From a virus: DNA of 27,449 nt. A program made the position numbers and the translations under genes. The stretch lies in IMG/VR virus record IMGVR_UViG_3300013136_000037, positions 1 to 27,449 of that record; one strand, given 5' to 3'. Shown here one piece after another: positions 993 through 21,684 of the stretch; position 1 is the stretch's first letter; each line of letters opens with the position of its first letter. The notes below the pieces were generated by a model. It was given only the letters and a program-made list of their open reading frames with translations. It did no database searches and had not been told where the DNA came from.

Positions 993-1011
993 ATTTTTTA
1001 TTAGGTATGAG

Positions 1012-1098
1012 AGCCGAATACTGGATTCGAACCAGTGCGGGGTATAAAAACCCTCGTGATTACAAGTCACGCCCAATCAACCACTATGGGAATTCGGC
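1012..1098 (-). tRNA. tRNA-Thr(UGU) with a long class II-like variable arm
   Basis: The acceptor stem is GCCGAAT/ATTCGGC with discriminator U73, as in Bacteroidota Thr tRNAs. The anticodon stem is CGTGA/TCACG around loop CTTGTAA, anticodon UGU. The T-arm ACTGG-TTCGAAT-CCAGT is perfect. The D-stem is 3 bp (CCA/TGG), and the variable region is 18 nt with a GGGT/ACCC stem, where class I tRNAs have about 5 nt. Both are class II features, normally found only in Ser, Leu and Tyr tRNAs. No CCA is encoded. Confidence 0.85.
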
Positions 1099-1124
1099 TT
1101 ATAAATACCTGATTATCAGAGTTG

Positions 1125-1197
1125 TCGAAGATATCCGATTTGAACGGCTTCTGAGCATCCCAAATGCCCCGTGTTACCAGGTTACACCATATCCTCG
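1125..1197 (-). tRNA. tRNA-Pro(UGG)
   Basis: The acceptor CGAGGAT/ATCTTCG has the C1-G72 pair typical of bacterial Pro tRNAs, with A73. The anticodon stem GGGCA/TGCTC encloses loop TTTGGGA, anticodon UGG. The T-arm is CCG-TTCAAAT-CGG with a mismatch further out. A second Pro(UGG) gene lies at 2675-2749. Confidence 0.85.
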
Positions 1198-1241
1198 ATA
1201 TTTACTTTTATAATATGAAAAAAAAAGTTTTAATTTTTTTG

Positions 1242-1408
1242 TGGAAAATGCGGGATTCGAACCCGCGACGTTGGTAACTAGTAACGCGCTTCCCTTGCTC
1301 ATTTTTTCACCACCTCAATAAGGTCGCTATAGGTGCATCCGCAATTCGTTATCCAATCAGGATTACTTTCGTTGCCTGTACGATCCGCCTTTTCATCGTT
1401 GATTTCCC
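1242..1408 (-). ncRNA. tRNA-like element with a 167-nt span and tRNA 3' end
   Basis: The 3' part (1242-1266) is a textbook T-arm, GCGGG-TTCGAAT-CCCGC, followed by acceptor strand ATTTTCC and A73. The sequence GGGAAAT at 1402-1408 can pair with that acceptor strand (one G.U), but about 140 nt lie between them and no D-arm is seen. The interior is richer in G+C than its neighbours and holds a strong hairpin near 1262-1285. One frame is open without a start codon and ends at a TGA near 1300. It may be a tRNA interrupted by an unrecognised insertion, a tRNA fragment left by recombination, or a tmRNA-like RNA. The usual tmRNA 5' signature is absent. Confidence 0.45.
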
Positions 1409-1418
1409 ATTCATTTTG

Positions 1419-1502
1419 AGCTGATGGTGAGACTCGAACTCACGATGTCTTCTCAGACGCTGGGTTACAAAGCCAGTGTAATAGCCGCTATACTACATCA
1501 GC
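1419..1502 (-). tRNA. Class II-like tRNA with UGU anticodon (Thr?)
   Basis: The acceptor GCTGATG/CATCAGC is perfect, with U73. The D-stem is 3 bp (GTA/TAC). The anticodon stem CTGGC/CCCAG has an inner C.C mismatch around loop TTTGTAA, giving anticodon UGU. The variable arm is a stable GTCT-GAGA-AGAC hairpin (16 nt in all), and the T-arm GTGAG-TTCGAGT-CTCAC is perfect. Anticodon and discriminator suggest Thr, while the arm layout is that of Ser/Leu/Tyr tRNAs. Confidence 0.8.
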
Positions 1503-1504
1503 AT

Positions 1505-1582
1505 TGGTGCGAACAGATGGAGTCGAACCATCGACTTCTTGTTTGTAAGACAAGTACTCTGAACCTACTGAGTTATGCTCGC
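1505..1582 (-). tRNA. tRNA-Val(UAC), CCA encoded
   Basis: The acceptor GCGAGCA/TGTTCGC has one G.U pair and is followed by ACCA in the DNA, the clearest encoded CCA end in the cluster. The anticodon stem CTTGT/ACAAG encloses loop CTTACAA, anticodon UAC. The T-loop is TTCGACT. It is 2 nt from the next tRNA downstream. Confidence 0.9.
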
Positions 1583-1586
1583 ATGG

Positions 1587-1657
1587 AGCGAAATGTGGGA
1601 ATCGAACCCCTTCCTCTGGTTGGAAGCCAGATACTTTACCGTTAAGCTACATTTCGC
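1587..1657 (-). tRNA. tRNA-Gly(UCC)
   Basis: The acceptor GCGAAAT/ATTTCGC is perfect, with U73. The anticodon stem TCTGG/CCAGA encloses loop CTTCCAA, anticodon UCC. The T-arm GGG-TTCGATT-CCC has two outer mismatches. At 71 nt it is short, with a reduced D-arm. Confidence 0.85.
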
Positions 1658-1666
1658 AATTTACTG

Positions 1667-1739
1667 AGCGAATGATGGGATTCGAACCCACGAACCTTCT
1701 GGTTGGCAACCAGACTATCTACCGCTGATATACATTCGC
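1667..1739 (-). tRNA. tRNA-Gly(GCC)
   Basis: The acceptor GCGAATG/CATTCGC has U73. The anticodon stem TCTGG/CCAGA encloses loop TTGCCAA, anticodon GCC. The T-arm has loop TTCGAAT. The anticodon stem matches the neighbouring Gly(UCC) gene, suggesting duplication and divergence. Confidence 0.9.
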
Positions 1740-1749
1740 ATTTTATCAC

Positions 1750-1816
1750 AGATTACATTTTTTCAGAATTTCAAATTACAAGTTTGGTCCTTTTTTAAGA
1801 TTGCTGTATGTAATCT
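1750..1816 (-). ncRNA. Minimal tRNA-like element with a UGU loop
   Basis: A 67-nt element is closed by AGATTACAT/ATGTAATCT. Inside it a CAAA/TTTG stem holds the 7-nt loop CTTGTAA, identical to the anticodon loop of the Thr(UGU) gene at 1012-1098. There is no normal D- or T-arm. The 5' segment ACATACAGCAA is shared with the element at 1837-1886. Function is unknown; it could be a decayed tRNA-Thr or a mimic. Confidence 0.45.
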
Positions 1817-1836
1817 TTAGATAATTTTTTAAGAAC

Positions 1837-1886
1837 AGAATACTTTTTTTGCTAACCATGCATTTTTTTGTTGCTGTATGTATTCT
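1837..1886 (-). ncRNA. Minimal tRNA-like element with a GGU loop
   Basis: A 50-nt element is closed by a 7-bp stem, AGAATAC/GTATTCT, with the same ATACAGCAA segment after the 5' strand as its neighbour. The fourth pair has changed from T-A to A-T with pairing kept. An inner TGC/GCA stem presents the 7-nt loop ATGGTTA, whose middle triplet GGT is a Thr anticodon. It lies next to the real tRNA-Thr(GGU). Confidence 0.4.
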
Positions 1887-1895
1887 TTATCTTAG

Positions 1896-1968
1896 AGCGA
1901 AAGGTGAGTTACGATCTCACGACCTCTTCCTTACCAAGGAAGTATTCTACCAACTGAACTACAATCGC
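1896..1968 (-). tRNA. tRNA-Thr(GGU), partly degenerate
   Basis: The anticodon stem CTTCC/GGAAG encloses loop TTGGTAA, anticodon GGU, with U73. The D-arm contains GTTGGTAGA. The acceptor GCGATTG/CTTTCGC has two internal T.T mismatches, and the T-loop is ATCGTAA instead of TTCRANN, so it may be decaying or structurally relaxed. Confidence 0.78.
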
Positions 1969-1973
1969 ATGGA

Positions 1974-2007
1974 CCGGGCTCTGCGATACAACAGAGGATC
2001 ATCCCGG
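1974..2007 (-). ncRNA. Inter-tRNA hairpin, unknown
   Basis: A two-tier hairpin: outer CCGGG/CCCGG, a one-sided bulge of about 6 nt, inner CTCTG/CAGAG and an 8-nt loop. It fills the spacer between tRNA-Thr(GGU) and tRNA-Ala. There is no U-tract, so it is not a terminator. It could be a processing element or a small structured RNA. Confidence 0.4.
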
Positions 2008-2012
2008 ATATG

Positions 2013-2086
2013 TGGATCGTGTGAGATTTCAACTCCTCTTAAACATTGCAAGTGTTTCGTGCTAAGCAGGTTACACTACACAACCC
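2013..2086 (-). tRNA. tRNA-Ala(UGC)
   Basis: The acceptor GGGTTGT/ACGATCC contains the G3.U70 wobble that is the main alanine identity element, plus A73. The anticodon stem AAACA/TGTTT encloses loop CTTGCAA, anticodon UGC. The T-arm is weak, with loop TTGAAAT. Confidence 0.82.
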
Positions 2087-2164
2087 ATATAAATTTCTTT
2101 TAATTCATTTAAATCTATAAATATTTTTATTTCAGTATCATAATATTTACCCTATAATAAAATA

Positions 2165-2238
2165 GTGGAGACGAATATAATCGAAATCTCCCAGAAACAT
2201 TGCAAATGTCTCTCGCCAGCCTTGGTACATGCGCCCCC
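2165..2238 (-). tRNA. tRNA-Ala(UGC)-like, second copy, diverged
   Basis: Like its neighbour it is 74 nt long with G3.U70 in the acceptor (GGGGGCG/CGTCTCC) and A73. The anticodon stem AGACA/TGTTT encloses loop TTTGCAA, anticodon UGC. The T-stem is poor around loop TTCGATT, and the D-arm does not fit the usual shape. It may be a decaying duplicate. Confidence 0.65.
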
Positions 2239-2270
2239 TAATTTTCCAACATGTCAAAGAACAACTACTC

Positions 2271-2492
2271 TTACCAACTACTCAATTCAATACTGTGATT
2301 TTTACCACACTCACAATTTACTGAAACATTCACAGAACCGTGTGAACCACACAATTCACACTCACTTTCACTACCCAAAAAATATAACTTAGATATATCC
2401 ACAGTCACATTTTTCTCTAAGTTTTCACAGAATATTTCTACTGCTAAAACTTTTGATTCTACTTTTTTTACTGCTACTTTTTTTGTTTTCAT
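2271..2492 (-). CDS. Small protein with CxxC / CxC zinc-ribbon-like C-terminus
   Basis: This hypothetical 73-residue protein lies inside the tRNA cluster. The start is placed at the ATG giving MKTKKVAVKKVESK, because the longer frame would run into the tRNA-Arg(CCU) gene at 2507. The N-terminus is basic. The C-terminal half has CELCGSHG and CECGKNH, which could bind one zinc ion. It reads in the direction of the tRNAs and sits between an Ala tRNA-like gene and the D-armless Arg tRNAs, so it is presumably transcribed with them. I recognise no family. A role in RNA binding would fit the place and the zinc motif but is only a guess. Confidence 0.6.
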   Translation of the reverse strand: MKTKKVAVKKVESKVLAVEIFCENLEKNVTVDISKLYFLGSESECELCGSHGSVNVSVNCECGKNHSIELSSW

Positions 2493-2506
2493 AATCTTTA
2501 TTTTTG

Positions 2507-2586
2507 TGACCCAGAAGAGATTCGAACTCTCATTTTTCATTCCAATTATGCACATAGAGTTTAGGAAACTCCGCCATTACAGGGCC
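2507..2586 (-). tRNA. tRNA-Arg(CCU), apparently D-armless
   Basis: The acceptor is GGCCCTG/CTGGGTC with A73, one G.U and one T.T. The anticodon stem GGAGT/ACTCT encloses loop TTCCTAA, anticodon CCU. The T-arm is GAGAG-TTCGAAT-CTCTT. Only TAATGGC separates the acceptor and anticodon stems, leaving no room for a D-arm, while the variable region is 24 nt. Against the next copy, acceptor pair 3-70 is C-G here and T-A there, which supports the fold. Confidence 0.72.
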
Positions 2587-2592
2587 AATTTG

Positions 2593-2669
2593 TGATCCAG
2601 GAGAGATTCGAACTCTCATTTTCATCCATTATGCACATAGAGTTTAGAAGACTCCGCCATTACAGGACC
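2593..2669 (-). tRNA. tRNA-Arg(UCU), apparently D-armless
   Basis: The acceptor GGTCCTG/CTGGATC has A73, and the anticodon stem GGAGT/ACTCT encloses loop CTTCTAA, anticodon UCU. The T-arm GAGAG-TTCGAAT-CTCTC is perfect. The same 7-nt linker TAATGGC replaces the D-arm. The 21-nt variable region has a CAT/ATG mini-stem also present in the CCU copy. It is a tandem partner of 2507-2586 and a second UCU reader beside the intron-containing gene. Confidence 0.72.
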
Positions 2670-2674
2670 AGTTG

Positions 2675-2749
2675 TCTAAGTGAGAGGAGTCGAACCTCCA
2701 ATAACCCCGGTTCCAAGCCGGGTAACCACACCACATGGATCGCACCTAG
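2675..2749 (-). tRNA. tRNA-Pro(UGG), second copy
   Basis: The acceptor CTAGGTG/CACTTAG has C1-G72 and A73. The strong anticodon stem CCCGG/CCGGG encloses loop CTTGGAA, anticodon UGG. The T-arm is GGAGG-TTCGACT-CCTCT. The D-arm is unusual. It is the first tRNA of the cluster in transcription order. Confidence 0.85.
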
Positions 2750-3871: not shown

Positions 3872-4708
3872 TTATATTCTTCCCGTTTCGTCCTCAGACA
3901 GGCCCAGTGTTTTAGCTAAATTTTGTAATTCTTTTGCGTTCATGTTAATTATCTTATTAAGAATCATTTTTTTTGCATTATCATTAGCTGAGCCTTTTAT
4001 CTGATCCGATATTTGATCAACTGCATTAGATGTATTTGCACCTAATTGATTTAATAATTGCATTTTAGGTTTTAGTAAATCAAATAAGGTCGTATTAATC
4101 CAATTAGTAGCTGCCTTTTTATATGCGACTAAATCGGCCTGTTCATTTGGATTATCAGCTTCTAATATCTTTTGTATATTATACTTTATTCTTTCAGTTG
4201 TATTCTCTGTTTGAGCTGGTTCGTTTTCTTTTTCTTTATCCAGACCAGATAATTCTTTTATTTGTGGTACAGCAACCTGTCCAATATACTCCGGTGCGGC
4301 ATTTGCAAATTGATCTTCTGGATATGTCATTAAAACTTTCAATCTTTTATCTCTTGCTCTACTAAATATTTCATCCATAGTAAATTCATCATTTTGTAAT
4401 TTATTTACTATCGGTTTTAGAGAATAATAGAAATATTTTAAAGAATCTGTAACAATTTTATTAACAGCATCAATAGATTCTGCTTGATTAATCTCATTTT
4501 GAATATTAGTTTGATTAGCTTTGATATATCTTTGATATAGATTAGAAACATTTTTATCTGTATCTACTTTTTTAGTAAAATCAACAAATAAATTATGTAA
4601 TGATTGATTAGGTTCTTTGAAAATGTTTTTATAATAAGTCTTTAAAAACTTTGACACAGAAGATAATTCTTCATTTAAAAAATTGTAATATGAAATTATA
4701 TTATTCAT
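3872..4708 (-). CDS. Putative internal (head) protein with capsid-targeting-like N-terminus, 278 aa
   Basis: This hypothetical, mostly helical, hydrophilic protein starts MNNIISYYNFLNEELSS. Residues 1-13 match the pattern of the T4 internal-protein targeting peptide MKTYQEFIAEA, with aromatic/hydrophobic spacing and an L-N-E cleavage-like site at residues 11-13. T4 prohead protease cleaves after I/L-x-E. There are no membrane segments. It is the second gene of a late operon, with its ATG immediately after the stop of the 343-aa gene, which has a similar N-terminus. Packaging in the capsid is an inference; the family is unknown to me. Confidence 0.65.
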   Translation of the reverse strand: MNNIISYYNFLNEELSSVSKFLKTYYKNIFKEPNQSLHNLFVDFTKKVDTDKNVSNLYQRYIKANQTNIQNEINQAESIDAVNKIVTDSLKYFYYSLKPIVNKLQNDEFTMDEIFSRARDKRLKVLMTYPEDQFANAAPEYIGQVAVPQIKELSGLDKEKENEPAQTENTTERIKYNIQKILEADNPNEQADLVAYKKAATNWINTTLFDLLKPKMQLLNQLGANTSNAVDQISDQIKGSANDNAKKMILNKIINMNAKELQNLAKTLGLSEDETGRI

Positions 4709-5740
4709 TTAAGCACCTTCAGTTATATCCATTAAAGTATTTTTATTAATCATAAATCCGCCTCCACCTTTAGGTCCAATAACAGTTACTAGTCCTTTAT
4801 CGTTTGGTTTATCTGATTTTACTTTTACTTTAATTATCTCACCTTTCGAATTATAAAAATTGTAATCTTTACCTTTCTCCGGAGTAAAGTCCTTATCTAT
4901 ATTTTCAGCTCTAAATGGCTGAAGTTCAGTCTTACCCATTTCATCTGAAATATATCTAGCAATAACTTCATCTGGATCTTTAGCTTTATCTGAAATTTTA
5001 ATAATTGCAATACTACCATCTTTCTTTTTGTATCTATATGGAACGCCAACTCTAAATAAATTACCACCTACATTTATCTCAACATCCTTATTCTTTACTA
5101 TATTATCAAGTCTTGCATTTATTTCTTTAGCTAATTTATTTCTTTCTATCGCAAGTTTAGATGCAGTGGTTTTATCACCACCTTTTTCAAGGGCAGAAAT
5201 TTCAGCATTCAAAAACATTAATCTAAATTCATCTTTTTTAGTTTCTATATACAAGGCCAATTTAGGATTTTTTTCTTTTCCTCCCATTTTTTGTAAAACT
5301 CTATCCATTTTAAGTAAAGCCTTATCTCGATATTGATTAATAAGATTTTGAATTAATTTCTGTTTCTCTTTTAATGTTTTTAATGATAATTTAGTATTTT
5401 TTTCTTGTTCTTCTGTATTATCAGTTTGATCAGGTTGAGTAGTTTGTTTTTGTTCTGTATCAACAGCTTCCTTTACTGGATTTTTTCCAGAATCTTTCAT
5501 ATCTTGTAATTGTTCTTCGGCTGTTATACCTAAATCAATATTAAATTTTTTCTTAAATTCGTTATCTATAATTGTTTGATATTCTTTGAAAATTACATCA
5601 ACCTCTTTGGCACCCTTAACCTTATTAATGACGGCATTGATTTTCTTAAAAATATTTCCCATGAATTGAAATAATCCTTCATTTAATTTATCTAAATTTT
5701 CAAGATTTTTGAACTCATTTCTTGTATATAAATTCTTCAT
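4709..5740 (-). CDS. Putative internal (head) protein, 343 aa
   Basis: First gene of the operon running to 3150. The N-terminus MKNLYTRNEFKNLENLDKLN is followed by E21-G22, giving an L-N-E processing-like site at residues 19-21 and a K-x-x-x-x-R-N-E-F core shared with neighbouring genes. After it come a helical region, a Gln/Thr/Glu-rich linker (about residues 85-118), a long coiled-coil-like segment (about 118-215) and a C-terminal region with two repeated beta-rich halves (lines such as VGVPYRYKKKDGSIAIIKI and KDYNFYNSKGEIIKVKV). A late-type promoter lies 19-29 nt upstream. Function is unknown. Confidence 0.65.
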   Translation of the reverse strand: MKNLYTRNEFKNLENLDKLNEGLFQFMGNIFKKINAVINKVKGAKEVDVIFKEYQTIIDNEFKKKFNIDLGITAEEQLQDMKDSGKNPVKEAVDTEQKQTTQPDQTDNTEEQEKNTKLSLKTLKEKQKLIQNLINQYRDKALLKMDRVLQKMGGKEKNPKLALYIETKKDEFRLMFLNAEISALEKGGDKTTASKLAIERNKLAKEINARLDNIVKNKDVEINVGGNLFRVGVPYRYKKKDGSIAIIKISDKAKDPDEVIARYISDEMGKTELQPFRAENIDKDFTPEKGKDYNFYNSKGEIIKVKVKSDKPNDKGLVTVIGPKGGGGFMINKNTLMDITEGA

Positions 5741-5758
5741 TTGTTTAAATATTTTTTT

Positions 5759-5769
5759 TTATATATTAA
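5759..5769 (-). promoter_or_regulatory. Late-type promoter, internal-protein operon
   Basis: The coding strand reads TTAATATATAA, 19 nt upstream of the ATG at 5740. It diverges from the plus-strand promoter at 5800. Confidence 0.6.
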
Positions 5770-5799
5770 TTTTTCAAAATCATTTTGAGAATAAAGAAT

Positions 5800-5810
5800 T
5801 TAATATATAT
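5800..5810 (+). promoter_or_regulatory. Late-type promoter, surface protein gene
   Basis: TTAATATATAT lies 18 nt before the ATG at 5829. Its position argues for that start over in-frame codons further upstream. Confidence 0.6.
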
Positions 5811-5828
5811 CATAAAATATTTTTATCA

Positions 5829-7481
5829 ATGCCAATCGAATTTTTAAAACAATTAATTCCTAATCCTTTGGACAAGGAAAATTTTAATAGTCCCAATGTG
5901 GATGATTTTGAAAAAATTATTGATGATGCTAAAGATAAAATAAATAAACTACAAGAAATAGGTCTACCTGGAATTAAAGATGTAGCAAATATGATTTGGA
6001 AATTAATCCAAGATAAATTTTTATTATCACCTAGACAGATCTCTAAAAAAATGTTAATTATTCAAGGCAGTAAATTCAATCCTGGTTGGTTTCCAGGTGC
6101 AGAACCGATTGATGAAGAAAGAGCACAATTAATTGTATATGGTAAAGTTTTTTATAAAGATGGTAAGCTATACGACAAAGATTATGAAGGATCCGCATGG
6201 GTATGGTATAAGAATGCAAATTATGATGATAGTAATATAGAATGTGTTGCTCATCCTGGTGAAGAAGATTATATGCCACCTATGGATACTAAGCATCCTA
6301 TGTTTAAAGATGCAAAAGATTTGGTCAAAGGATTAAAGGAAGATTTAAAGCAATTGGCAATTAAAATTGCAGAATTCATACTTGCTTTACCTGAAGCTAT
6401 TATTCAAATTGTACTTGCATTATTATCTCTAATTTCTTCAATAATCATAATACCACCAGGTTCAGGTGTACCGACAGCATTAACCGCTGTTCAAACAGTA
6501 TTTAGAACTATTAAAGCACTTCAAGAAAAGGTAGCAGAATTATTACCATTTTTAAGTGTATTAAAAAAATTAGGTATAGTACTTTCAAAACAAGCTCAAG
6601 CAATAATTTCTCAAATTATCGCTGTAATAACTGTAATTTTAGGTATAATAGGTTCTTTAACTTCAATATTAGGATTATTAAATAAAGTAGTTGAAGCATT
6701 CAAAAAATTAATGAAGAAAAAAGATGAACAGAAGCTAGAAGTAGATCCAAGAGCAAGTGATACGAATTTAGAACCAGGTGAATCTACAAAATTAGATGCA
6801 TATCCAAGTGGTGGAAGTTGGGATTATGATTATCAATGGACTGATGATCAAGGTAATGTAATCGGAACAGATAGAAATGTTAGTATAGCTCCTGAAAAAA
6901 CAACAATCTATACGGCTAAAGTTACAGATAAAACTACTGGCGAGGTTAAAGAAGGAACAGTCAGAATTAAAATAAGACCTATGCCAGAAAAAGGCGCATC
7001 TGGAACTAGTGGTACTAGCGGTTCTAGTGGAAAACCTGGCACAAGTGGAACAAGCGGAGCAAGCGGAAGTAGCGGTGTTAGTCCATCCGGAAGTTCATCA
7101 GAGACAACAACCACAACAACAGGATCATCCGAAACTACAACAACTACTACAGACGGTGGTGAAACAACAACAACTACAACCATATTTTCACCAACAACAT
7201 CATTACCAACTACTACACCAGCACCAGATCCTTATAATTATTATACTGTTAAAGAATTTAGTTGTCCAGGATGTACATTGAATAGCACTTATGATATAAA
7301 AACATTAGATTATGTGGCACCTGGTGATTATGGTAAATATTATCTATCTGGCTCTGTTGCATTACAAATTCAAGGTCCAACAACATCTGGAGCTTATCCA
7401 GAGCATACATTATTAACTGGTTATGTTAGTTGTGTTCTTGCTTGTGGAACAACTACTACAACAACTACACCATCACCATAA
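5829..7481 (+). CDS. Large virion/surface protein with Ig/PKD-like domain and Thr-rich stalk
   Basis: A 550-residue protein, start MPIEFLKQLIPNPLD, chosen because the late promoter lies just before it; the frame is open further upstream only by chance. Residues 1-165 are globular. Residues about 170-295 are long hydrophobic/amphipathic helices (ILALPEAIIQIVLALLSLIS and following), possibly membrane-active. An Ig/PKD-like beta domain (about 305-390, with YQWTDDQGN) comes next, then a collagen-like Gly-Ser-Thr run (GTSGTSGSSG) and blocks of six or more Thr. The C-terminal unit has CPGC near 477-480 and a second Cys pair, closing on another Thr tract. It looks like a baseplate or fibre protein carrying an exposed, probably host-binding tip. 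It stands alone on the plus strand among minus-strand genes. Confidence 0.65.
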   Translation: MPIEFLKQLIPNPLDKENFNSPNVDDFEKIIDDAKDKINKLQEIGLPGIKDVANMIWKLIQDKFLLSPRQISKKMLIIQGSKFNPGWFPGAEPIDEERAQLIVYGKVFYKDGKLYDKDYEGSAWVWYKNANYDDSNIECVAHPGEEDYMPPMDTKHPMFKDAKDLVKGLKEDLKQLAIKIAEFILALPEAIIQIVLALLSLISSIIIIPPGSGVPTALTAVQTVFRTIKALQEKVAELLPFLSVLKKLGIVLSKQAQAIISQIIAVITVILGIIGSLTSILGLLNKVVEAFKKLMKKKDEQKLEVDPRASDTNLEPGESTKLDAYPSGGSWDYDYQWTDDQGNVIGTDRNVSIAPEKTTIYTAKVTDKTTGEVKEGTVRIKIRPMPEKGASGTSGTSGSSGKPGTSGTSGASGSSGVSPSGSSSETTTTTTGSSETTTTTTDGGETTTTTTIFSPTTSLPTTTPAPDPYNYYTVKEFSCPGCTLNSTYDIKTLDYVAPGDYGKYYLSGSVALQIQGPTTSGAYPEHTLLTGYVSCVLACGTTTTTTTPSP

Positions 7482-7482
7482 G

Positions 7483-8361
7483 TTATTTATTTTTGAAATC
7501 TTGAAATTTAATAGTAAGTTTATTATCTGAAACTTTAAGAGGAAATTTAATAGGAAATTTTAATTCTATGGTTTCTATTTCAAATGGATTTTCTTCATTA
7601 TTAGTAATTAAATTGGTAGTCAAGATTAATTTGTTATTTTCCAATCTATTATTTATATATTCCTGACACTCATCATCACTATTCCTAACTAAAATATCAA
7701 AATACTCTTGTAAATTATTAGCATTTACTATATTTGATTTAATATCATCGTAAAAATAAACAGTATTATATGCTTCTTTTTTAATGGGTACAAATCTATC
7801 TTTTTCAATTGTTAAACCAACTAAATGTTCTAATAGAATTTTATTTTTATCATAAAAAACTTTATCTAAATGTCCGACCAATTTAATTGATTCAGAAACA
7901 AAATATATCTTGTTTATTTCGAAACCATATTCTTTTAATTTTAATCTCAATTTATTAAGTAAATTTGCATGCTTTTTTCTATCACTTCTAGCAGTTAAAA
8001 CACCAATTTCAATATTTTTACCTATTAAATGCCTAATATTATTAAGCAACAATTGAACCTCTTTCTTATTGAGTATATCTTCATCAAAAAATTCAGCATA
8101 AGAAATACCAATATTACCCAATCTAATATTTTTCTTTCTTTGAATTCTTTCAACCATATCTTTAGAAATATAAAAACTATCACCATTGAATTCAATTAAA
8201 ATATCATCCTTAACATAAATTCCACTTTTAATAAGAGCAAATTCAATAGGTGAAATTTTTAAAATCGGTTTAGATGGATCATTCTTATCAATTACCCAAA
8301 TATCACTCTTTATAAACCAAAGAGTATTATCCAAATCAAAAAAAGCAATTTCTTTATTCAT
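7483..8361 (-). CDS. HAD-superfamily phosphatase-like protein
   Basis: A 292-residue protein. HAD motif I is FFDLDNTLW with nucleophile D9 and acid D11, motif II is GVLTARS, and the motif IV acidic pair is in YFYDD (about residue 200). The fold hydrolyses phosphate esters; phage members include polynucleotide 3'-phosphatases and nucleotidases. A hydrophilic insert (about 20-100) forms the cap, and the C-terminal 60 residues are beta-rich and unfamiliar. It overlaps the Nudix gene by 8 nt, so the two are translationally coupled and may clean up nucleotides or RNA ends together (inference). Substrate unknown. Confidence 0.78.
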   Translation of the reverse strand: MNKEIAFFDLDNTLWFIKSDIWVIDKNDPSKPILKISPIEFALIKSGIYVKDDILIEFNGDSFYISKDMVERIQRKKNIRLGNIGISYAEFFDEDILNKKEVQLLLNNIRHLIGKNIEIGVLTARSDRKKHANLLNKLRLKLKEYGFEINKIYFVSESIKLVGHLDKVFYDKNKILLEHLVGLTIEKDRFVPIKKEAYNTVYFYDDIKSNIVNANNLQEYFDILVRNSDDECQEYINNRLENNKLILTTNLITNNEENPFEIETIELKFPIKFPLKVSDNKLTIKFQDFKNK

Positions 8362-8821
8362 AATCTAAAAAATTCAATAATTGTAATTGATGTCTTTCTA
8401 TAATTCTTTTTGCATCATTTTTATTAAAAAAACCAGCCTCCACAGTCTCACCTTTTAAAAAATTACTTAATATCATATCATTAAATAATCTAACGTTAAT
8501 TTCATACCTTTCAACTTTAACAACATAACATGTTAATTCTTTATTGTAACCAGCTTTAAAATATTTAATTGTAATTTTTTCAGACTTTTTTAGTTTTTGT
8601 TTATTTAATTTTATTCTAGATTCTTCTCTTAATTCTTTTAGAGCAGTTTCCATTTTATTCATCTTTGCCTCAATATGACCCTTTGGTATAGACCATTTTC
8701 TCATATTTCTTCTAAATTTCTTAGGTCTAACCAATAAAATCTTATTATTATAAATAAGTACGACACCTGAAAGTCTATGATGACTTACAGCTTCCATTAT
8801 ATATTCATAAAAACTAATCAT
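8354..8821 (-). CDS. Nudix hydrolase with capsid-targeting-like N-terminus
   Basis: A 155-residue enzyme that should hydrolyse a nucleoside diphosphate linked to another moiety. The Nudix box is GHIEAK-M-NKMETAL-KELREES-RI: the metal-binding REES glutamates are kept, while three usual positions are changed (first Glu to Met, Arg to Lys, Gly to Arg). The core fold is visible (GVVLIYNNKILLVRPKK, WSIPKGHIE). The N-terminus MISFYEYIMEAVSHH closely follows the T4 internal-protein targeting peptide MKTYQEFIAEA, with cleavage-like I-M-E at residues 8-10, so the enzyme may be packaged in the head and injected. It lies between a 68-aa gene with a similar N-terminus and the HAD gene. Confidence 0.85.
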   Translation of the reverse strand: MISFYEYIMEAVSHHRLSGVVLIYNNKILLVRPKKFRRNMRKWSIPKGHIEAKMNKMETALKELREESRIKLNKQKLKKSEKITIKYFKAGYNKELTCYVVKVERYEINVRLFNDMILSNFLKGETVEAGFFNKNDAKRIIERHQLQLLNFLDYE

Positions 8822-8842
8822 AAATTAGGCGGTCTCTAAATC

Positions 8843-9049
8843 TTAAATTTCTGAACTTGATTCTTTTTTTGTAATTTGAACAGGTATATTTTTAATTCCC
8901 TTAAAATCTATAAACGCAATCTTCTCACCCTCTCTCCAACTTACCTTATCTACTATATCACCAATGCTTGGTAATTGATCTAATGTTATTGTAAAAGATT
9001 CATTTACAGGTGTTTGATTAAATTCATTATAAGACTTAATATTTTTCAT
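8843..9049 (-). CDS. Small protein with capsid-targeting-like N-terminus, 68 aa
   Basis: Begins MKNIKSYNEFNQTPVNESFT: the K-S-Y-N-E-F core and V-N-E site at residues 15-17 resemble the T4 targeting peptide and its cleavage site. The remaining 50 residues suggest a small beta barrel (GDIVDKVSWREGEKIAFIDF). It is the first gene of the Nudix/HAD operon, behind a late-type promoter. It may be a small internal head protein delivered with the DNA; no homologue is known to me. Confidence 0.65.
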   Translation of the reverse strand: MKNIKSYNEFNQTPVNESFTITLDQLPSIGDIVDKVSWREGEKIAFIDFKGIKNIPVQITKKESSSEI

Positions 9050-15126: not shown

Positions 15127-18100
15127 TTATCTAAATCCCATTGATTGAATATCACCTTTTTTCAAGATTGTGATATTATTTACAATAATACCCATTCCTT
15201 TTATTATTTCCACGTAAGTATCCAACACACCCATCTGTAGGTCAATAACATAATCTGTGTTATTGGTTTCGTCGCAAACGTTCCAGAAATCGTAGAATGC
15301 GTCGTTATCTAACATATCTTTACAGATTTTATCTGCGCGATATTTAATCTCGGCTCTAATCTCAGGTGTATTGAAGCTCCATTGATATTTCAATAACATA
15401 TCATACAGTCTATTTTCAAGTTCGATAAGAACTTCTCTTGAATGCATGAAACTAAGTGAACTATATGGAAAGATTTGAGCGGTTGATTCGTCATTAATAC
15501 AATAACCGTTATTAATCTTATATACAATTGGGTTAGCGCCCATTGCGTGTAAGTTCTCAAGATCGGTATTTGTGAAGTCCATTTCGGTCTTAGTTATATT
15601 ATTAACTCTACCGTTTGTAATACCTGCTGCAATTGTCCAAGGCAACATACCAGCAACATTAGATACGAATTTATTCATATAAGTTGTTGCTGCGAACATT
15701 GCTGGTGGAACCCATTTTGGAATACCATTGTCATATATTTTAATATATGGGAAGAAGTATCCAACACAGCTACTACCATTGATTTCACCATGTTTTTGTG
15801 CAAATTGATAGTAGAAATCTGGGTTTTTGCTATCATCGGCACCATCTTTAACATATTCAAGATTAAGAGTACCATCATCATTAGTAAACGATGGATTAGT
15901 TGACTCTCTGAATATTTTTGCACTTGGCATATTGATGAAACCTAAACAGTTCATTTTCATACCGCAAATATCAGCAAGTTGTTGTTTTGAACCGAATCCG
16001 TCCATAGGTACAAGTCCTAAACCGAAAGAATCTACAAGGTATCTCCAAGATATTTTATTCTTATCAGCTAAGCCTTTAGCAAGATTTGTATCTTTTGCGA
16101 TAACATTAAGAATCGAATTTTGTCTTTCATCTGTACCGTTTGGAATTGAATCTGTGTGAACAACGAATGGTGAAATTACCAAAGCTTTATATTCATCAAC
16201 ATAAACATCAATTGATGGGTATGTGAATGTTTGATAATCTACTTCAGTTGTACCAGTTACGATATTATAATCAACAATTCTAATTGGAGCATCAGCATAA
16301 AGGATCTTAGCGTTAACATCGGTTGGATCGTTTTGTACTTTGATTACTCTAGTGAATTTTCTTGGAACTGATCCTTCAAGATAACCTGGTCCACTAGGTG
16401 CAGCCCAATATGATTCATCATAATAAGCAGCTAAGAAACTACCCTTAGTAACTTCTGAGTATCTATTTTTATCAACTTTAATTTGTTGACAAGTTGTAAG
16501 ATCATCACCATACCATTCTTCAATTTCTACTGATTGTTGCCAGTTTGATTTATTTGAATGTAAGATTAAATCGTAATCATATTTGGTTACATCTGACCAA
16601 TCTGACTGGATAACTTCATAAGCAACATCTGGATCTAAAGCTGATAAGAAGTTAACAGTAAGAAGATTGTTTTGATCAAGATACATTTTTAAGTATACCT
16701 TATTAGTAGTTCCGCTATTGTTATTTACATAGAAATAATCCAAGTTATTAATTACACCATTATAATAATCTTGATATAATTGTGAATAAGTTGCAACGAT
16801 ACCATTTTTAGTAGTTGTACCTAAAACATCATATCTGGTTAATAATGTATCTGTATTTATAACACTATCATGTAATAAGAACTCATTATCAACATAGTAA
16901 AGTAAGAATGAGGTTCCTGAATAGCATGAAGATGGAGTATCACAATAAATTTTAATTTTTGAGTTTGATGTTGTGGTTGCCTCAATTGGAATTACCGAAA
17001 CAACTGGAACCTTATCACCAGTATCAAAAGTACCACCAGTTGTTTTAATCATAACACTCTGAGTTGAGATATTATCATAAATTTCAGTAAAACCTTGCAT
17101 TAGTCTGAGATATTCATAATCGTTATATACACCTGTTTGTCCTGATGTACCAAGAAACTCAATAAGCATATAGGTTCCTAATGTATCATAACTATCTGTT
17201 ATAGTGGTTTGGTAACCTGTAGTTTTACCAAGTGCTACATATGAAGCTGAACCTGCTGTTGAATTAACAGTTACTGGGTAATAATCAAGAGTATAGGTTG
17301 TACCTGATTTAAGATGATGTACATAACCTAATATAATAGTACTTGCTAAACTATAATTGTAATCTGGTTTAACTGCACCAGTATATAGATTAGAAGATGT
17401 ACCGTAGAGTATGTTAACAGAATTATCGTTAGTAAGATATAAAACATCATATCTTGATCCAACGGTATATGTTACACTACTTAATTCAATTGAAGTGGTA
17501 GTAAATCCACTAACAACGGAACCATTAATAACATAATAAGTATCAGTTCCACCGTCTGCGAATTCAATTGTACAAGTTGTCGTTCCAGTTACGGTTGAGC
17601 CAGAATTAAAATATATATCAAATGTATGTCCATTAGTGAATACACCAGATCTATCATTAACACCACTATTTAAATAATCTTGATTATAGCTATTAATATC
17701 GTTAGTAATAACATTATTGCTTGAATCTAGATATTTTTGTGAGTATGTTAACTCTTCTTTAAGTGTAGTTTCGTAAGACATAAATTTAATACTACTAATA
17801 TCTTGTCCAACTAAAACATCACCAATAATATCAAGGTTACCAAGTTTGAAATCTGCTTCTAATAATGAGTCTTCATTATAGGTACAGAATAAACCAGTTT
17901 TATCGGTATTATTATTTACGATATTTTTAATGTACATGTCTCTATCGTTCAAATCTTTGAAATAAGGTATTAATGAACAATCGTATTTAGCAAGAACGGT
18001 TACGGTTCTCTCATTGATAAAATTATCAACCTCAGTTTTAATTAAACCATTTCTATTGAAATAGTTACCATAAGTAGTATCATTTGATAAGGTTCTATAA

Positions 18101-18768
18101 TCTGACCAATCACCAGCCAACACTAACACAGTTACCATATAATCTGAAATCCATTCTCTATAATCGATATACGCTGGAACTTTTGTTCTATCACCGTACC
18201 ATTCTTCTGCGGTTACGTCAAAACCAGTTATATCTGACTTATACATAAAAACAGTGATATCTTTATCACCCATGTTAGTAATATGTAAAAGTCTTTGATT
18301 ATCTTGAACACCATAGTTATTAGCTTTTACAACATTCATAAAAGCATCTGGATCTCTTTCCCAGAAATCTTGTCTATTGAAAAATGATTCGTAAGCTGAG
18401 CTTTTAACATCACTATTCTGATACTGAGAAGAAACTGAAATAGTTTGCCATTCAACCTTATCTCTATTTGGATTGGTTGCTAGGAGATTAAGTGCCCAAA
18501 CTGGTCCACTTTTCAACATTTGTTTTACTGTTTTGTGAAAAAATGATCCTTTGTTTTCTAATCGTCTATCATCGTCACCAAAAATAGCAGTAAAATCAGT
18601 TGGATTTGTTACATAAATTGGTGCGTTAAAAGGTCCTTTTTTAGAAAACCCTGGGACAAGATTAATAAGAACATCCTGTACTGGAAGTTCTATAATACTG
18701 TCATCAATCTCATTAATGAAAACACCTGGCCTTTTGTATTTTCCGAAATCTTTGTCTTTAATTGGCAT
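15127..18768 (-). CDS. Tail sheath protein (gp18-like), exceptionally large
   Basis: The contractile sheath subunit, 1213 residues against 659 in T4 gp18. The N-terminus is typical (YKRPGVFINEIDDS, then VLINLVPGFSKKGPFNAP). The C-terminal part has the conserved contractile core: LGFINMPSAK, VGYFFPYIKIYD, WVPPAMFAAT, PWTIAAGI, the NGYCINDESTAQ region and SREVLIELENRLYDML. The excess lies mainly in the middle (about residues 370-730), a Ser/Thr/Gly/Tyr-rich beta region (FADGGTDTYYVINGS, YNDYEYLRLMQGF) that probably forms extra domains outside the tail. It is read alone from a late-type promoter. Downstream it is closed by the palindromic terminator at 15076. Confidence 0.9.
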   Translation of the reverse strand: MPIKDKDFGKYKRPGVFINEIDDSIIELPVQDVLINLVPGFSKKGPFNAPIYVTNPTDFTAIFGDDDRRLENKGSFFHKTVKQMLKSGPVWALNLLATNPNRDKVEWQTISVSSQYQNSDVKSSAYESFFNRQDFWERDPDAFMNVVKANNYGVQDNQRLLHITNMGDKDITVFMYKSDITGFDVTAEEWYGDRTKVPAYIDYREWISDYMVTVLVLAGDWSDYRTLSNDTTYGNYFNRNGLIKTEVDNFINERTVTVLAKYDCSLIPYFKDLNDRDMYIKNIVNNNTDKTGLFCTYNEDSLLEADFKLGNLDIIGDVLVGQDISSIKFMSYETTLKEELTYSQKYLDSSNNVITNDINSYNQDYLNSGVNDRSGVFTNGHTFDIYFNSGSTVTGTTTCTIEFADGGTDTYYVINGSVVSGFTTTSIELSSVTYTVGSRYDVLYLTNDNSVNILYGTSSNLYTGAVKPDYNYSLASTIILGYVHHLKSGTTYTLDYYPVTVNSTAGSASYVALGKTTGYQTTITDSYDTLGTYMLIEFLGTSGQTGVYNDYEYLRLMQGFTEIYDNISTQSVMIKTTGGTFDTGDKVPVVSVIPIEATTTSNSKIKIYCDTPSSCYSGTSFLLYYVDNEFLLHDSVINTDTLLTRYDVLGTTTKNGIVATYSQLYQDYYNGVINNLDYFYVNNNSGTTNKVYLKMYLDQNNLLTVNFLSALDPDVAYEVIQSDWSDVTKYDYDLILHSNKSNWQQSVEIEEWYGDDLTTCQQIKVDKNRYSEVTKGSFLAAYYDESYWAAPSGPGYLEGSVPRKFTRVIKVQNDPTDVNAKILYADAPIRIVDYNIVTGTTEVDYQTFTYPSIDVYVDEYKALVISPFVVHTDSIPNGTDERQNSILNVIAKDTNLAKGLADKNKISWRYLVDSFGLGLVPMDGFGSKQQLADICGMKMNCLGFINMPSAKIFRESTNPSFTNDDGTLNLEYVKDGADDSKNPDFYYQFAQKHGEINGSSCVGYFFPYIKIYDNGIPKWVPPAMFAATTYMNKFVSNVAGMLPWTIAAGITNGRVNNITKTEMDFTNTDLENLHAMGANPIVYKINNGYCINDESTAQIFPYSSLSFMHSREVLIELENRLYDMLLKYQWSFNTPEIRAEIKYRADKICKDMLDNDAFYDFWNVCDETNNTDYVIDLQMGVLDTYVEIIKGMGIIVNNITILKKGDIQSMGFR

Positions 18769-20958: not shown

Positions 20959-21684
20959 ATGAAAAATAAAAATTATGATTTTTCGTCAAAAAAAGATGAA
21001 ATAAAAAATATTTTTAATACTACAGACTTTCAAGAATATAGAGAAAAACAGAAGAAAAAACAGAAGAGAAAAGAAGATATTTATAAAGTTACTTCTATTG
21101 GTAATTCTACCAACACAGTTAGATTTTTAATTCTCTCTAATATTCTTATATTTATTATAAGCTATATAGTACCTTCAATTGTAACTAACTTTGCTAGTTA
21201 CAATATCTCAGATGAAAACTTTTCCTTTTATCCGCCCCTTACATCCATGTTCCCTCATGCCGGTATTAATCATATTATATTTTAAATGATAATGCTATGG
21301 TCATTTGGAAACCCACTTGAACAAATTATTGGAACTAGAAAGTTTCTATTTATTTACTTTGTAAGTGGATTAGTATCTGGTATTCTTTGGATGTTATTTG
21401 GAACTGGTGCTGCTATTGGTGCATCCGGAGCATTATGTGGACTATTATCCACTTTTGTTTTTATTTCACCCGAAACAAAAGTATATCTTTTCTTTGTATT
21501 ACCTGTAAAAGTTAAGAGTCTGGTTTATGGATTTGCATTATTCTCACTCATATTTGGTATACTATCTCTGATAGATCCAGTATTAGGATTTGGAATCGGA
21601 CACTTTGGACATTTGGGTGGATTGATTGGTGGTTATCTAATTACGTTATATTGGTCAAAGAAAAAACTTATTCAAACAGCATAA
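20959..21684 (+). pseudogene. Rhomboid-family intramembrane protease, interrupted by an in-frame TAA
   Basis: Two frames in the same phase, 108 and 132 residues, are separated only by TAA at 21283-21285 and together make one rhomboid. The first part has a basic cytoplasmic N-terminus, a first membrane helix (about residues 54-74) and FPHAGINHIIF. The stop follows where the family has Asn (HxxxN; N154 in E. coli GlpG, an oxyanion residue). The second part begins MIMLWSFGNPLEQIIG and carries the catalytic GASG Ser (residue 47 of that part) and HLGG His (residue 109). The ATG directly after the TAA would allow reinitiation and a two-piece protein. Otherwise it is a nonsense mutation or sequence error. 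It has its own promoter and terminator. Confidence 0.8.

Follow-up and report, generated by a model that had tools for sequence, protein, structure and literature searches.

Four proteins encoded in a 27,449-nt stretch of viral DNA (the window, from IMGVR_UViG_3300013136_000037) very probably begin with T4-type capsid-targeting and maturation peptides, judging from sequence; such peptides would serve as tags by which cargo for injection is loaded into the prohead and processed. The tag is enriched at protein N-termini and conserved among homologues, relatives of this phage encode a maturation protease fused to a scaffold with repeats, and their major capsid protein carries a conserved x-N-E site. 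We infer that the tagged proteins are packaged, cut and injected. The window lies within an 83-kb contig (L066), kin of the 735-kb phage LR756501.

Four N-terminal tags on different bodies

All four tagged open reading frames were confirmed on the minus strand (Table 1). The earlier note on this DNA had described T4-like capsid-targeting starts on these genes, and the sequence bears this out, with putative cuts at LNE/E, LNE/G, IME/A and VNE/S; the terminal motifs that it named stand, but not the order in which it listed them, since the gene order is LNE, LNE, IME, VNE. Its statement that T4 internal proteins start with MKTYQEFIAEA holds for IPII and IPIII but not for IPI, which starts with MKTFKEFTSTTTPVSTITEA.

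Table 1. Tagged genes, their putative tags and neighbouring features in the window.
Feature	Position	Strand	Details
Tagged protein 3872, 278 aa	3872..4708	minus	all-helical prediction; AlphaFold2 weak, pLDDT 63
Tag MNNIISYYNFLNE of 3872, putative cut after E13, then ELSS	4670..4708	minus	short form; leave-one-out matrix score 18.4
Tagged protein 4709, 343 aa	4709..5740	minus	helical part and small beta-barrels; AlphaFold2 pLDDT 70.6
Tag MKNLYTRNEFKNLENLDKLNE of 4709, putative cut after E21, then GLFQF	5678..5740	minus	long, IPI-like form
Protein starting DLDNTLW, untagged	7483..8361	minus	between the tagged pairs; HAD-like by eye; Pfam weak, Acid_PPase 0.042
Tagged Nudix hydrolase 8354, 155 aa	8354..8821	minus	PF00293 6.2e-9, residues 17-101, over cut-off
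Tag MISFYEYIME of 8354, putative cut after E10, then AVSHH	8792..8821	minus	short form; leave-one-out matrix score 12.8
Tagged small protein 8843, 68 aa	8843..9049	minus	no Pfam or PHROG match
Tag MKNIKSYNEFNQTPVNE of 8843, putative cut after E17, then SFTIT	8999..9049	minus	long, IPI-like form
Tail sheath protein	15127..18768	minus	phage placement: 53% identity to LR756501, 78% to G013

Like the capsid-targeting sequences of T4 IPI, IPII and IPIII, the tags are N-terminal peptides of 10-21 residues with aromatics at or near the Y4 and F7 positions and a terminal I, L or V followed by x-E, and they precede unrelated bodies. Both T4 layouts occur in the window, the short one of IPII and IPIII and the long one of IPI. 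The Nudix tag matches the IPIII spacing, with F4, Y7, I8 and E10. In 3872 and 8843 the aromatics are Y7 and F10, which is the T4 spacing shifted three residues inward, while 4709 departs from the T4 pattern with Y5 and F10, a wider spacing and a 21-residue tag. The gp21 cleavage rule L/I-x-E is obeyed by LNE, LNE and IME; the VNE of 8843 is a conservative departure. The conserved tag positions are those that mutagenesis showed to be important in T4, where, according to the available text of PMC9026906, positions 4 and 7 act in targeting and positions 8 and 10 in processing.

Homologues retain most of these features. M1, Y7, L11 and E13 are invariant in the 3872 family (7 sequences), and each of the six homologues besides the window's own protein has a tag-like start. 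In the 4709 family (7 sequences), 7 of the 18 invariant columns fall within residues 1-21 of 343 (p 2.4e-5; 1.5e-4 without Met1). An aromatic-rich start and the Glu are kept in 7/7 sequences of the 8843 family (six homologues besides the window's own), two of which have F or K, not I, L or V, at the third residue before the cut; one homologue (G003) keeps the post-cut stretch with the spacer gone, reading MRKMRTYQEFIKE and then SFTITLDQLPS. The 4709 and 8843 tags were accepted because they are conserved in relatives, the gapped long form being missed by the matrix used below. The Nudix tag has decayed in two of six homologues (L084 and L075), in which the targeting half is mostly gone and IME/A and LME/A remain; L004 and L111, Nudix ORFs that are more distant, carry no tag.

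Among Pfam and PHROG matches, the four bodies have no family in common and none matches an IPI, IPII or IPIII family; 8843 has no match in either collection. The Nudix box consensus is G-x5-E-x7-REUxEE-x-G, and 8354 carries the glutamates of REUxEE that mark the superfamily (E63, E66 and E67 within KELREE, invariant in 7 sequences). Its box differs from the consensus in reading G-x5-M-x7-KELREE-S-R, with the first box Glu replaced by Met. The nearest solved relatives of 8354 are asymmetrical Ap4A hydrolases (3u53, E 3.3e-7); compared with these and other Nudix enzymes, it shares the Nudix domain and adds the N-terminal tag, whereas T4 nudE is untagged. In the AlphaFold2 model of 4709, pLDDT is below 50 for residues 1-23 and 72-117 and above 80 from about residue 31. 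In Foldseek searches of PDB and BFVD, this model had no match reaching E<=0.001; tudor/SH3-like barrels are among the best PDB rows, all short of that threshold. On the broader reading given below, cutting in the 4709 family would release a cationic amphipathic helix that is conserved (GLFQFMGNIFKKINAVINKVKG) and might assist entry at the membrane. The 3872 model was too weak for a structure search. Single-protein scans of viral contigs matched only the window's own contig for the Nudix protein and 4709, and seven loci, the own one counted, for 3872; 4709 had zero matches in the named-phage collection and 3872 zero in seven named records.

Enrichment of the motif at protein N-termini

A rule taken from T4 alone (aromatic, two residues, aromatic, I/L, x, E, at offset 2-6) was matched by 3/115 ORF starts of the 83-kb contig versus 0/344 internal methionines (Fisher p 0.015), and by 43/1061 versus 6/3008 in LR756501 (p 1e-19). 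We also built an 11-residue matrix from 67 training tags, with no T4 sequence among them and each training peptide scored by a model built without it; Asn before Glu is the commonest residue in the training tags (30/67). Tags were counted per genome at a matrix score of at least 10. The matrix picks 3872 and the Nudix gene (Table 1) but fails on the long gapped forms 4709 (-1.3) and 8843 (0.2). It also finds a fifth tagged gene on the contig, beyond the window (L066:7359-7946, MKYLKQYEQYIKE then TITT, score 13.3).

N-termini scoring at least 10 numbered 57/1061 in LR756501, 23/687 in LR756500 and, outside the training set, 25/989 in LR745206, versus 1/2917, 1/1357 and 1/2180 internal methionines, respectively. 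A matrix trained on LR756501 alone retrieved 19/687 in LR756500, 25/989 in LR745206, 3/115 in the window's contig and 2/71 in T4; one trained on LR756500 alone picks just 3872 among the four window tags. In the 60-110 kb region of T4, the T4-free matrix selects only IPII and IPIII (2/71 ORFs) and misses the long-form IPI. Lak-B2 encodes an S77 fusion, and its capsid ORF has an LNE close to the beginning, but it has no tags (0/499 plus 0/179).

Resemblance by chance among A+T-rich N-termini, or spread of one 5' segment by recombination, would be a very improbable explanation of the motif and is already contradicted for the short-form tags. Low G+C favours K, N, I, Y, F and E, some tagged families are paralogues, and loose gapped patterns give many false matches; such a pattern found 27/687 N-termini versus 15/1357 internal methionines in LR756500 and, being too noisy in some genomes, was excluded from the counts. 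Against this, matches at internal methionines or in shuffled N-termini are very rare: on the 83-kb contig 0/338 internal methionines reach a score of 8, and 1/575 shuffled N-termini reaches 10 and none 12. MaF61 likewise gave 0/195 at a score of 10 (1/195 at 8). Tagged bodies are mostly unrelated in the three genomes, with 57 proteins falling into 44 clusters, 25 into 23 and 24 into 17; the largest paralogue clusters have 7 and 7 members in LR756501, 3 in LR745206 and 8 in LR756500.

Codon agreement inside the tags is near the codon-usage expectation (0.541 vs 0.576, 0.610 vs 0.573 and 0.774 vs 0.807). Upstream of tagged genes, identity is 34-40% over 60 bases versus 31-34% at bases 61-90. Both measures lie near background, which argues against fresh copying of tag DNA, and recent spread of one DNA segment was set aside. 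The words found upstream of tagged genes were 8-mers present in 4-5 genes, or A+T-rich words.

Protease, scaffold and capsid protein in relatives

The window's own 83-kb contig has no S77 hit, and among seven close contigs the sole hit, in G006, is to a short paralogue that lacks the aligned His; the short paralogues in L014 and L065 lack the His. A gp21-type protease and a close sheath are found on one contig in G013 (sheath 78% identical to the window's) and G016 (70%), a sheath being present in 8/17 contigs asked. The metagenome of the window also yielded L169, a contig with an S77 hit that could not be linked to the window by tetranucleotides (r 0.608, rank 55/80); its protease matches the PHROG head maturation protease (4e-28), and PHROGs confirmed portal, head maturation protease and major head protein in its head module.

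In relatives, the gp21-type protease is fused to a scaffold in which the tag core (YSEYIAE) is usually repeated in tandem, and this fusion adjoins portal and capsid genes. The scaffold repeat unit is 14 residues long (YSEYIAENLDKNIA), with the tag core inside. In five fusions, GE-x-[DN]-HP and SSR stretches align with T4 gp21; their His and Ser, which we take to be the gp21 active-site residues, place the relatives' proteins in the gp21 (S77) family, although PF03420 stays under its cut-off in four of the five. The long proteases belong to an already known PHROG family (phrog_207, 519 positions). All 79 fusions read in the best 80 loci have 3-15 tag-core matches each over the whole ORF, a count that is not independent evidence because the 80 loci were found by similarity to the five fusions. 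In the fusion part read, LR756501 has 10 matches and LR745206 has 11, and repeats are present in the LR756504 and LR756502 fusions too. The LR756500 fusion has just one match and no clear repeats, though the genome has tags. Repeat fusion and tag are thus separable, since this genome has tags with a single tag-core match in its fusion and T4 has tags with gp21 and gp22 as separate proteins. At one site of the major capsid proteins, Glu is found in 56/56 and Asn in 53/56.

The arrangement resembles T4 gp21/gp22 in that the protease gene adjoins the portal gene and the capsid protein has an x-E site. It differs in that protease and scaffold form one polypeptide, in most relatives with tandem 14-residue repeats containing the tag core. 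The inner-body and ejection proteins of phiKZ and SPN3US are comparable in that, according to the available text of PMC9026906 and PMC13282480, a gp21-related protease cuts numerous head proteins, some of which are injected; the phiKZ cleavage motif is S/A-x-E, and that text describes no T4-type N-terminal tag for either phage.

The sorting tag on unrelated bodies that the earlier note had proposed gains support from the N-terminus-only enrichment, the retrieval of T4 IPII and IPIII, the conserved targeting residues and the protease in relatives. That the motif is some other N-terminal sorting signal, for a phage compartment or membrane import, with convergent likeness to T4, appears improbable. 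The phage is uncultured and the tag known from its sequence, and the DPYGEExW motif of LR756501 suggests that other peptide codes may exist; but among 71 T4 ORFs the T4-free matrix retrieves just two, both from the set of three internal proteins, the tag motif recurs in the protease-scaffold fusion, and a terminal [ILV]-x-E follows a rule for cleavage that import would not need. A nucleus-import, lipoprotein or secretion signal was set aside by reasoning only.

Proposed loading route and candidate cargo

For the capsid-targeting tag we propose the following route. Late in infection, the precursor protein would attach through the aromatic half of its tag to the prohead core, whose protein in most relatives examined is the head-maturation protease fused to the repeat scaffold. 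Because the 14-residue scaffold repeats contain the tag core motif, the tag may act as a single free copy of the repeat. Cleavage by the protease after [ILVM]-x-E would follow in scaffold, major capsid protein and tags, emptying the core and leaving mature cargo in the head for ejection with the genome. The Nudix enzyme would be one item of a mixed cargo acting at entry; its targets could be, for instance, signalling or capped nucleotides.

A broader reading, to which we give slightly less than an even chance, is a loading code of the LR756501 clade. The fusion would be a self-destroying dock with up to about a dozen motif copies and cut sites, and an N-terminal copy would get any protein packaged and injected, about 23-57 proteins per genome against three T4 internal proteins. 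This generalisation is weakened because LR756500, a tagged genome, has a fusion with one tag-core match. Candidate counter-defence cargo comprises Nudix and Sa_NUDIX proteins, a 2H/Acb1-like phosphoesterase joined to an exonuclease, a T4-type RNA ligase and DHH proteins. Pfam and NCBIfam searches on 108 tagged proteins gave RNA ligase, PPK2, DeoC, methyltransferase, Sa_NUDIX and LRR proteins.

Alternatively, the tags may only anchor or process prohead-core or structural proteins that are degraded or kept in the capsid, with nothing injected, a reading we regard as unlikely, if less so than the others. In T4, gp21 cuts gp22 and further core proteins into fragments that the head mostly loses (available text of PMC9026906), and 4709 and 3872 are conserved across near relatives, as expected of core parts. 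On the other hand, enzymes and LRR proteins without evident head role are among the 108, and the bodies are highly diverse, like T4 internal proteins.

Phage-injected proteins are the first to meet host defences and are hard to list for uncultured huge phages. If the tag is read correctly, sequence would reveal which proteins some of the largest phages inject, candidates could be tested, and the repeat scaffold would offer a concrete answer to how a capsid-targeting sequence is recognised, which the available text of PMC9026906 describes as affinity for the core and nothing further. In literature searched mostly by titles and abstracts, and including PMC7824862, PMC9391042 and PMC3012670, no title describes capsid-targeting sequences in huge or metagenomic phages. 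Identifying cargo by its tag is not new as an approach, because T-even internal proteins were identified earlier by their signal sequence, according to the accessible part of PMC12373910. The same part reports all three T4 internal proteins as type IV restriction enzyme inhibitors, and for jumbo phages a 2026 review (PMC13282480), as far as its accessible text goes, names Tad1 as the sole anti-defence protein yet described; a catalogue of injected proteins would for these reasons be a large step. Apart from the tag, LR756501 has a second widespread peptide motif, DPYGEExW.

Tags in the window and in related huge phages

The called ORFs bore out the earlier note's description of the N-termini of the minus-strand genes at 3872, 4709, 8354 and 8843, each a putative capsid-targeting tag followed by a putative cut site (|). 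In the 8354 Nudix protein, MISFYEYIME|A aligns position by position with MKTYQEFIAE|A, the short layout of T4 IPII and IPIII, and the 3872 tag, MNNIISYYNFLNE|E, has the same layout with three extra residues at the front. The tags of 8843 (MKNIKSYNEFNQTPVNE|S) and 4709 (MKNLYTRNEFKNLENLDKLNE|G) follow the long layout of T4 IPI (MKTFKEFTSTTTPVSTITE|A). LNE ends two of the window tags and VNE one. Passages of PMC9026906 report that the first ten residues of T4 IPIII are enough for packaging, with residues 4 and 7 serving targeting and residues 8 and 10 processing, and that gp21 cleaves after L/I-x-E; they also report that internal proteins co-purify with gp22 and that tag fusions deliver foreign proteins. 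The window tags share these targeting and processing features.

The window lies in reverse orientation within the 83,240-base contig IMGVR_UViG_3300013137_000010 (G001), from which it differs at 13 of 27,449 positions, none within 3872-9049; this contig holds a fifth gene with a short-form tag (listed in the table of features). The window's tail sheath (1213 aa) is closest to those of uncultured huge phages, with 53% identity to LR756501 (735 kb), 39-41% to LR756502, LR745206 and LR756504 (634-642 kb) and 35% over 61% to LR756500 (462 kb), followed by Flavobacterium phage MaF61 and the Lak phages. The reference genomes were LR756501, LR745206 and LR756500; closer relatives were represented by the contigs G003, G004, G006, G013 and G016, and comparison sets came from MaF61, Lak-B2 and a 50-kb stretch of T4.

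ORFs were called mechanically and their starts compared with two controls, Met residues inside those proteins and shuffled N-termini. A strict pattern occurred at 32/1061 starts in LR756501, 21/687 in LR756500 and 3/115 in G001, versus 0/2821, 0/1303 and 0/334 internal Met, respectively. An 11-residue matrix built without T4 from 67 strict-pattern peptides, each scored without itself, was likewise enriched at starts, including in three sets outside its training (LR745206, G013 and G016).

Matrix matches (score at least 10) at protein starts and in controls
Set	Starts	Internal Met	Shuffled
LR756501	57/1061	1/2917	3/5305
LR756500	23/687	1/1357	2/3435
G001	3/115	0/338	1/575
G006	5/197	0/529	0/985
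G003	4/82	0/251	1/410
G004	3/61	0/223	0/305
LR745206	25/989	1/2180	
G013	7/242	0/544	
G016	7/147	2/328	
T4 60-110 kb	2/71	0/221	

The two T4 matches are IPII and IPIII; IPI, the third internal protein in that region, was missed, and so were the window tags of 4709 and 8843. Training on LR756501 only gave 2/71 in T4, 19/687 in LR756500, 25/989 in LR745206 and 3/115 in G001; training on LR756500 only still gave 2/71 in T4 and found only 3872 in the window. A rule derived from T4 only was likewise enriched in each of six huge-phage sets and in LR745206 (p ≤0.043), with 0/195 in MaF61 and 0/499 in Lak. The matrix found 0/195 at score 10 in MaF61, scanned up to its last 7.8 kb, and tags numbered 0/499 and 0/179 in Lak-B2.

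Conservation of the tags and their homologue families

Tagged bodies fall into many groups (57 into 44, 25 into 23 and 24 into 17 in three genomes, 24 being the final-matrix count). Codon agreement at residues common to tags of different groups was 0.541 versus 0.576 expected from codon usage, and in the other two sets 0.610 versus 0.573 and 0.774 versus 0.807. The 60 bases upstream of tagged genes are 34-40% identical, against 31-34% at gene bases 61-90. Near-expected codon sharing and upstream identity argue against the tags being copied DNA, and selection seems to act on the peptide and not on the DNA. Text from PMC3012670 describes T-even internal proteins as diverse bodies with conservation confined to the targeting sequence.

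The 4709 family (seven sequences including the window's) keeps the blocks M[KR]NLY-x3-[ED]F and [IL]NE, joined by a spacer variable in length and letters; 7 of 18 invariant columns fall within the first 21 residues. In the AlphaFold2 model of 4709, pLDDT is below 50 at residues 1-23 and above 80 in the helix behind, from about residue 31; it is likewise low in the linker 72-117, so the tag is not alone in being disordered. Residues 22-43, the putative mature N-terminus (GLFQFMGNIFKKINAVINKVKG), form a cationic amphipathic helix with a moment of 0.52, a value reached by 27 of 2867 18-mers from eight window proteins; in six homologues the moment is 0.37-0.56.

The G003 homologue of 8843 keeps the mature start SFTITLDQLPS with the long tag replaced by a short one. 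Counting against the tag in this family, F or K replaces the expected I/L/V in two of seven sequences. Of the six Nudix homologues, L019, L079 and L261 carry a short tag and L106 a possible long one; in L084 and L075 the ending IME|A or LME|A persists, but the targeting half is mostly gone; the more distant Nudix ORFs L004 and L111 have no tag. The 8354 protein keeps the Nudix-box glutamates, and its closest solved structures are Ap4A hydrolases; it is a plausible early injected nucleotide hydrolase. Between the tagged genes lies an untagged DLDNTLW protein, with 70-76% identity in six relatives.

The protease–scaffold fusion and the putative cut site

The S77 (gp21-type) protease family PF03420 matched in LR756501, LR756502, LR745206, LR756504, LR756500 and Lak-B2, above the curated cut-off only in LR756500 and Lak-B2, and gave no match in MaF61. 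In LR756501 the protease lies between a portal ORF (PHROG portal, 1.2e-55) and a major head protein ORF (9.2e-23), and is joined in a single polypeptide to a long scaffold-like region built from 14-residue repeats, for example YSEYIAENLDKNIA. These repeats share with the tag the core [FY]-x-[EDNQ]-[FY]-[ILV]-A-E. At a higher threshold, internal tag-core matches number 9 in the LR756501 fusion and 11 in that of LR745206, and at most 2 in any other protein of seven sets. On the strength of this match, the tag may represent a scaffold repeat in free form.

A viral-contig scan with five fusions gave 370 relatives; among the best 80 of these, 79 fusions were read and had 3-15 matches each (whole ORF, lower threshold), which indicates conservation and not 79 independent cases, as similarity was the basis on which the loci were picked and a single phage accounts for several of them. 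The LR756500 fusion has one match although its genome carries tags, and T4 has tags, yet makes its protease and scaffold as two proteins; the link between tag and repeat is therefore frequent, not universal. The Lak-B2 S77 fusion is without repeats, and no tags were found among the Lak-B2 starts scored.

No S77 match was found in the window's own 83-kb contig, and the single match among seven near contigs is to a short paralogue in G006 that lacks the aligned His. Judged by sequence, the short S77-like ORFs of LR756501 and G006 are possibly inactive paralogues. A sheath is present in 8 of 17 fusion-bearing contigs examined. G013 (159 kb) and G016 (96 kb), with sheaths 78% and 70% identical to the window's, carry fusions with 10 and 12 tag-core matches, respectively, and on the evidence of these relatives the window phage very probably possesses one too. 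L169, from the metagenome of the window's contig, encodes portal, protease-scaffold and major head protein; its composition gave no tie to the window phage.

Across 56 distinct major-capsid N-termini, nearly all from the window's clade, one alignment column is Glu in 56/56, preceded by Asn in 53/56 and followed by Asn in 54/56. The site is mostly [ILMV]-N-E|N, as in HQMNE|NVGYA (LR756501) and HSLNE|NVAYS (G013). Across the training tags, the commonest residue before Glu is likewise Asn (30/67), and after it Ala and Ser (15 each).

Capsid targeting sequences are already known from T-even phages, as are injected internal proteins, which have been found there by their signal; long head-maturation proteases are an established PHROG family. 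As far as a search of open-access literature goes, mostly of titles and abstract openings, the huge-phage scale, the tagged enzymes and the tandem tag-core repeats in a protease-scaffold are new.

Tagged proteins and further motifs

We scanned 108 tagged proteins, 106 scoring at least 10 in three genomes and two extra from LR756501. They matched 36 Pfam families at 1e-4, the 25 listed including LRR, PPK2, Sa_NUDIX, polynucleotide 3'-phosphatase, T4-type RNA ligase, methyltransferase, DeoC, GH108 and radical SAM. When 28 of the 108 were read singly, 10 matched; beyond those tabulated, these were a methyltransferase, a DeoC aldolase, a DUF2201/VWA protein and another protein whose Ig-like matches were weak. 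A random untagged set (n=106) gave 50 families, the 25 listed including tRNA synthetases, DNA polymerase B and DNA ligase. Both sets contain LRR and radical SAM, and PHROG names like primase or polymerase appear among tagged proteins too, so that the difference between the sets is not a sharp one. LRR-family matches occurred in 5 of the 108; the NCBIfam names attached to the tagged LRR paralogues belong to LRR effectors from other organisms and probably indicate no more than the repeat itself.

Features by location (window positions, or sequence piece and positions)
Feature	Location	Strand	Remark
Nine tRNA genes	window 1011-2749	minus	
4709 residues 22-43	window 5612-5677		
DLDNTLW protein	window 7483-8361		
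Rhomboid-like ORF	window 20959-21684		by eye
Fifth tagged gene	L066:7359-7946		window's contig
S77-like ORF	L014:1429-1965		LR756501; second, short, no scaffold, no aligned His
S77-like ORF	L065:1471-1923		G006; second, short, no scaffold, no aligned His
Sa_NUDIX	L123:824-1435		4e-30; match begins at residue 16, right behind tag
2'-5' RNA ligase-like, RNase_T	L128:8257-9573		3e-8, 3e-7; sub-threshold Acb1
RNA ligase	L129:10485-11747		8e-21
Radical SAM	L034:704-1237		3e-11
DHH	L039:11567-13015		1e-6; gapped tag; one of the two extra proteins
DHH	L111:5634-7625		2e-4, under its cut-off
Tagged LRR paralogues	L062:13446-14282, L092:972-1730, L092:18758-19531		LR756500; picked by eye
Tagged, exonuclease-like (DTETTG) and HAD-like starts	L190:10230-11006, L190:2035-2889		relative's head region; by eye
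DPYGEE motif, examples	L031:10798-11622, L047:17823-19457		LR756501

A second motif, [LIV]-DPYGEE-x-W-[DNE], was seen in LR756501 pieces L025-L061. DPYGE[ED] occurs 101 times in 87/1061 called LR756501 proteins and in 0/989 from LR745206, 0/687 from LR756500 and 0/115 from the window's contig. Its codings are many (44 different among 97) and nucleotide matches mostly in frame (101/109), which argues for selection as a peptide. It lies at most 20 residues from the C-terminus in 36/101 cases, is carried by 12/57 tagged versus 75/1004 other LR756501 proteins, and may be another motif for docking or sorting.

The window's rhomboid-like ORF is interrupted by an in-frame stop at a point uninterrupted in G001 and in the relatives L074, L080, L084 and L260. 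Positions 21223-21285 hold 12 of the 13 differences between the window and G001, and the split ORF reflects either strain variation or an assembly chimera.
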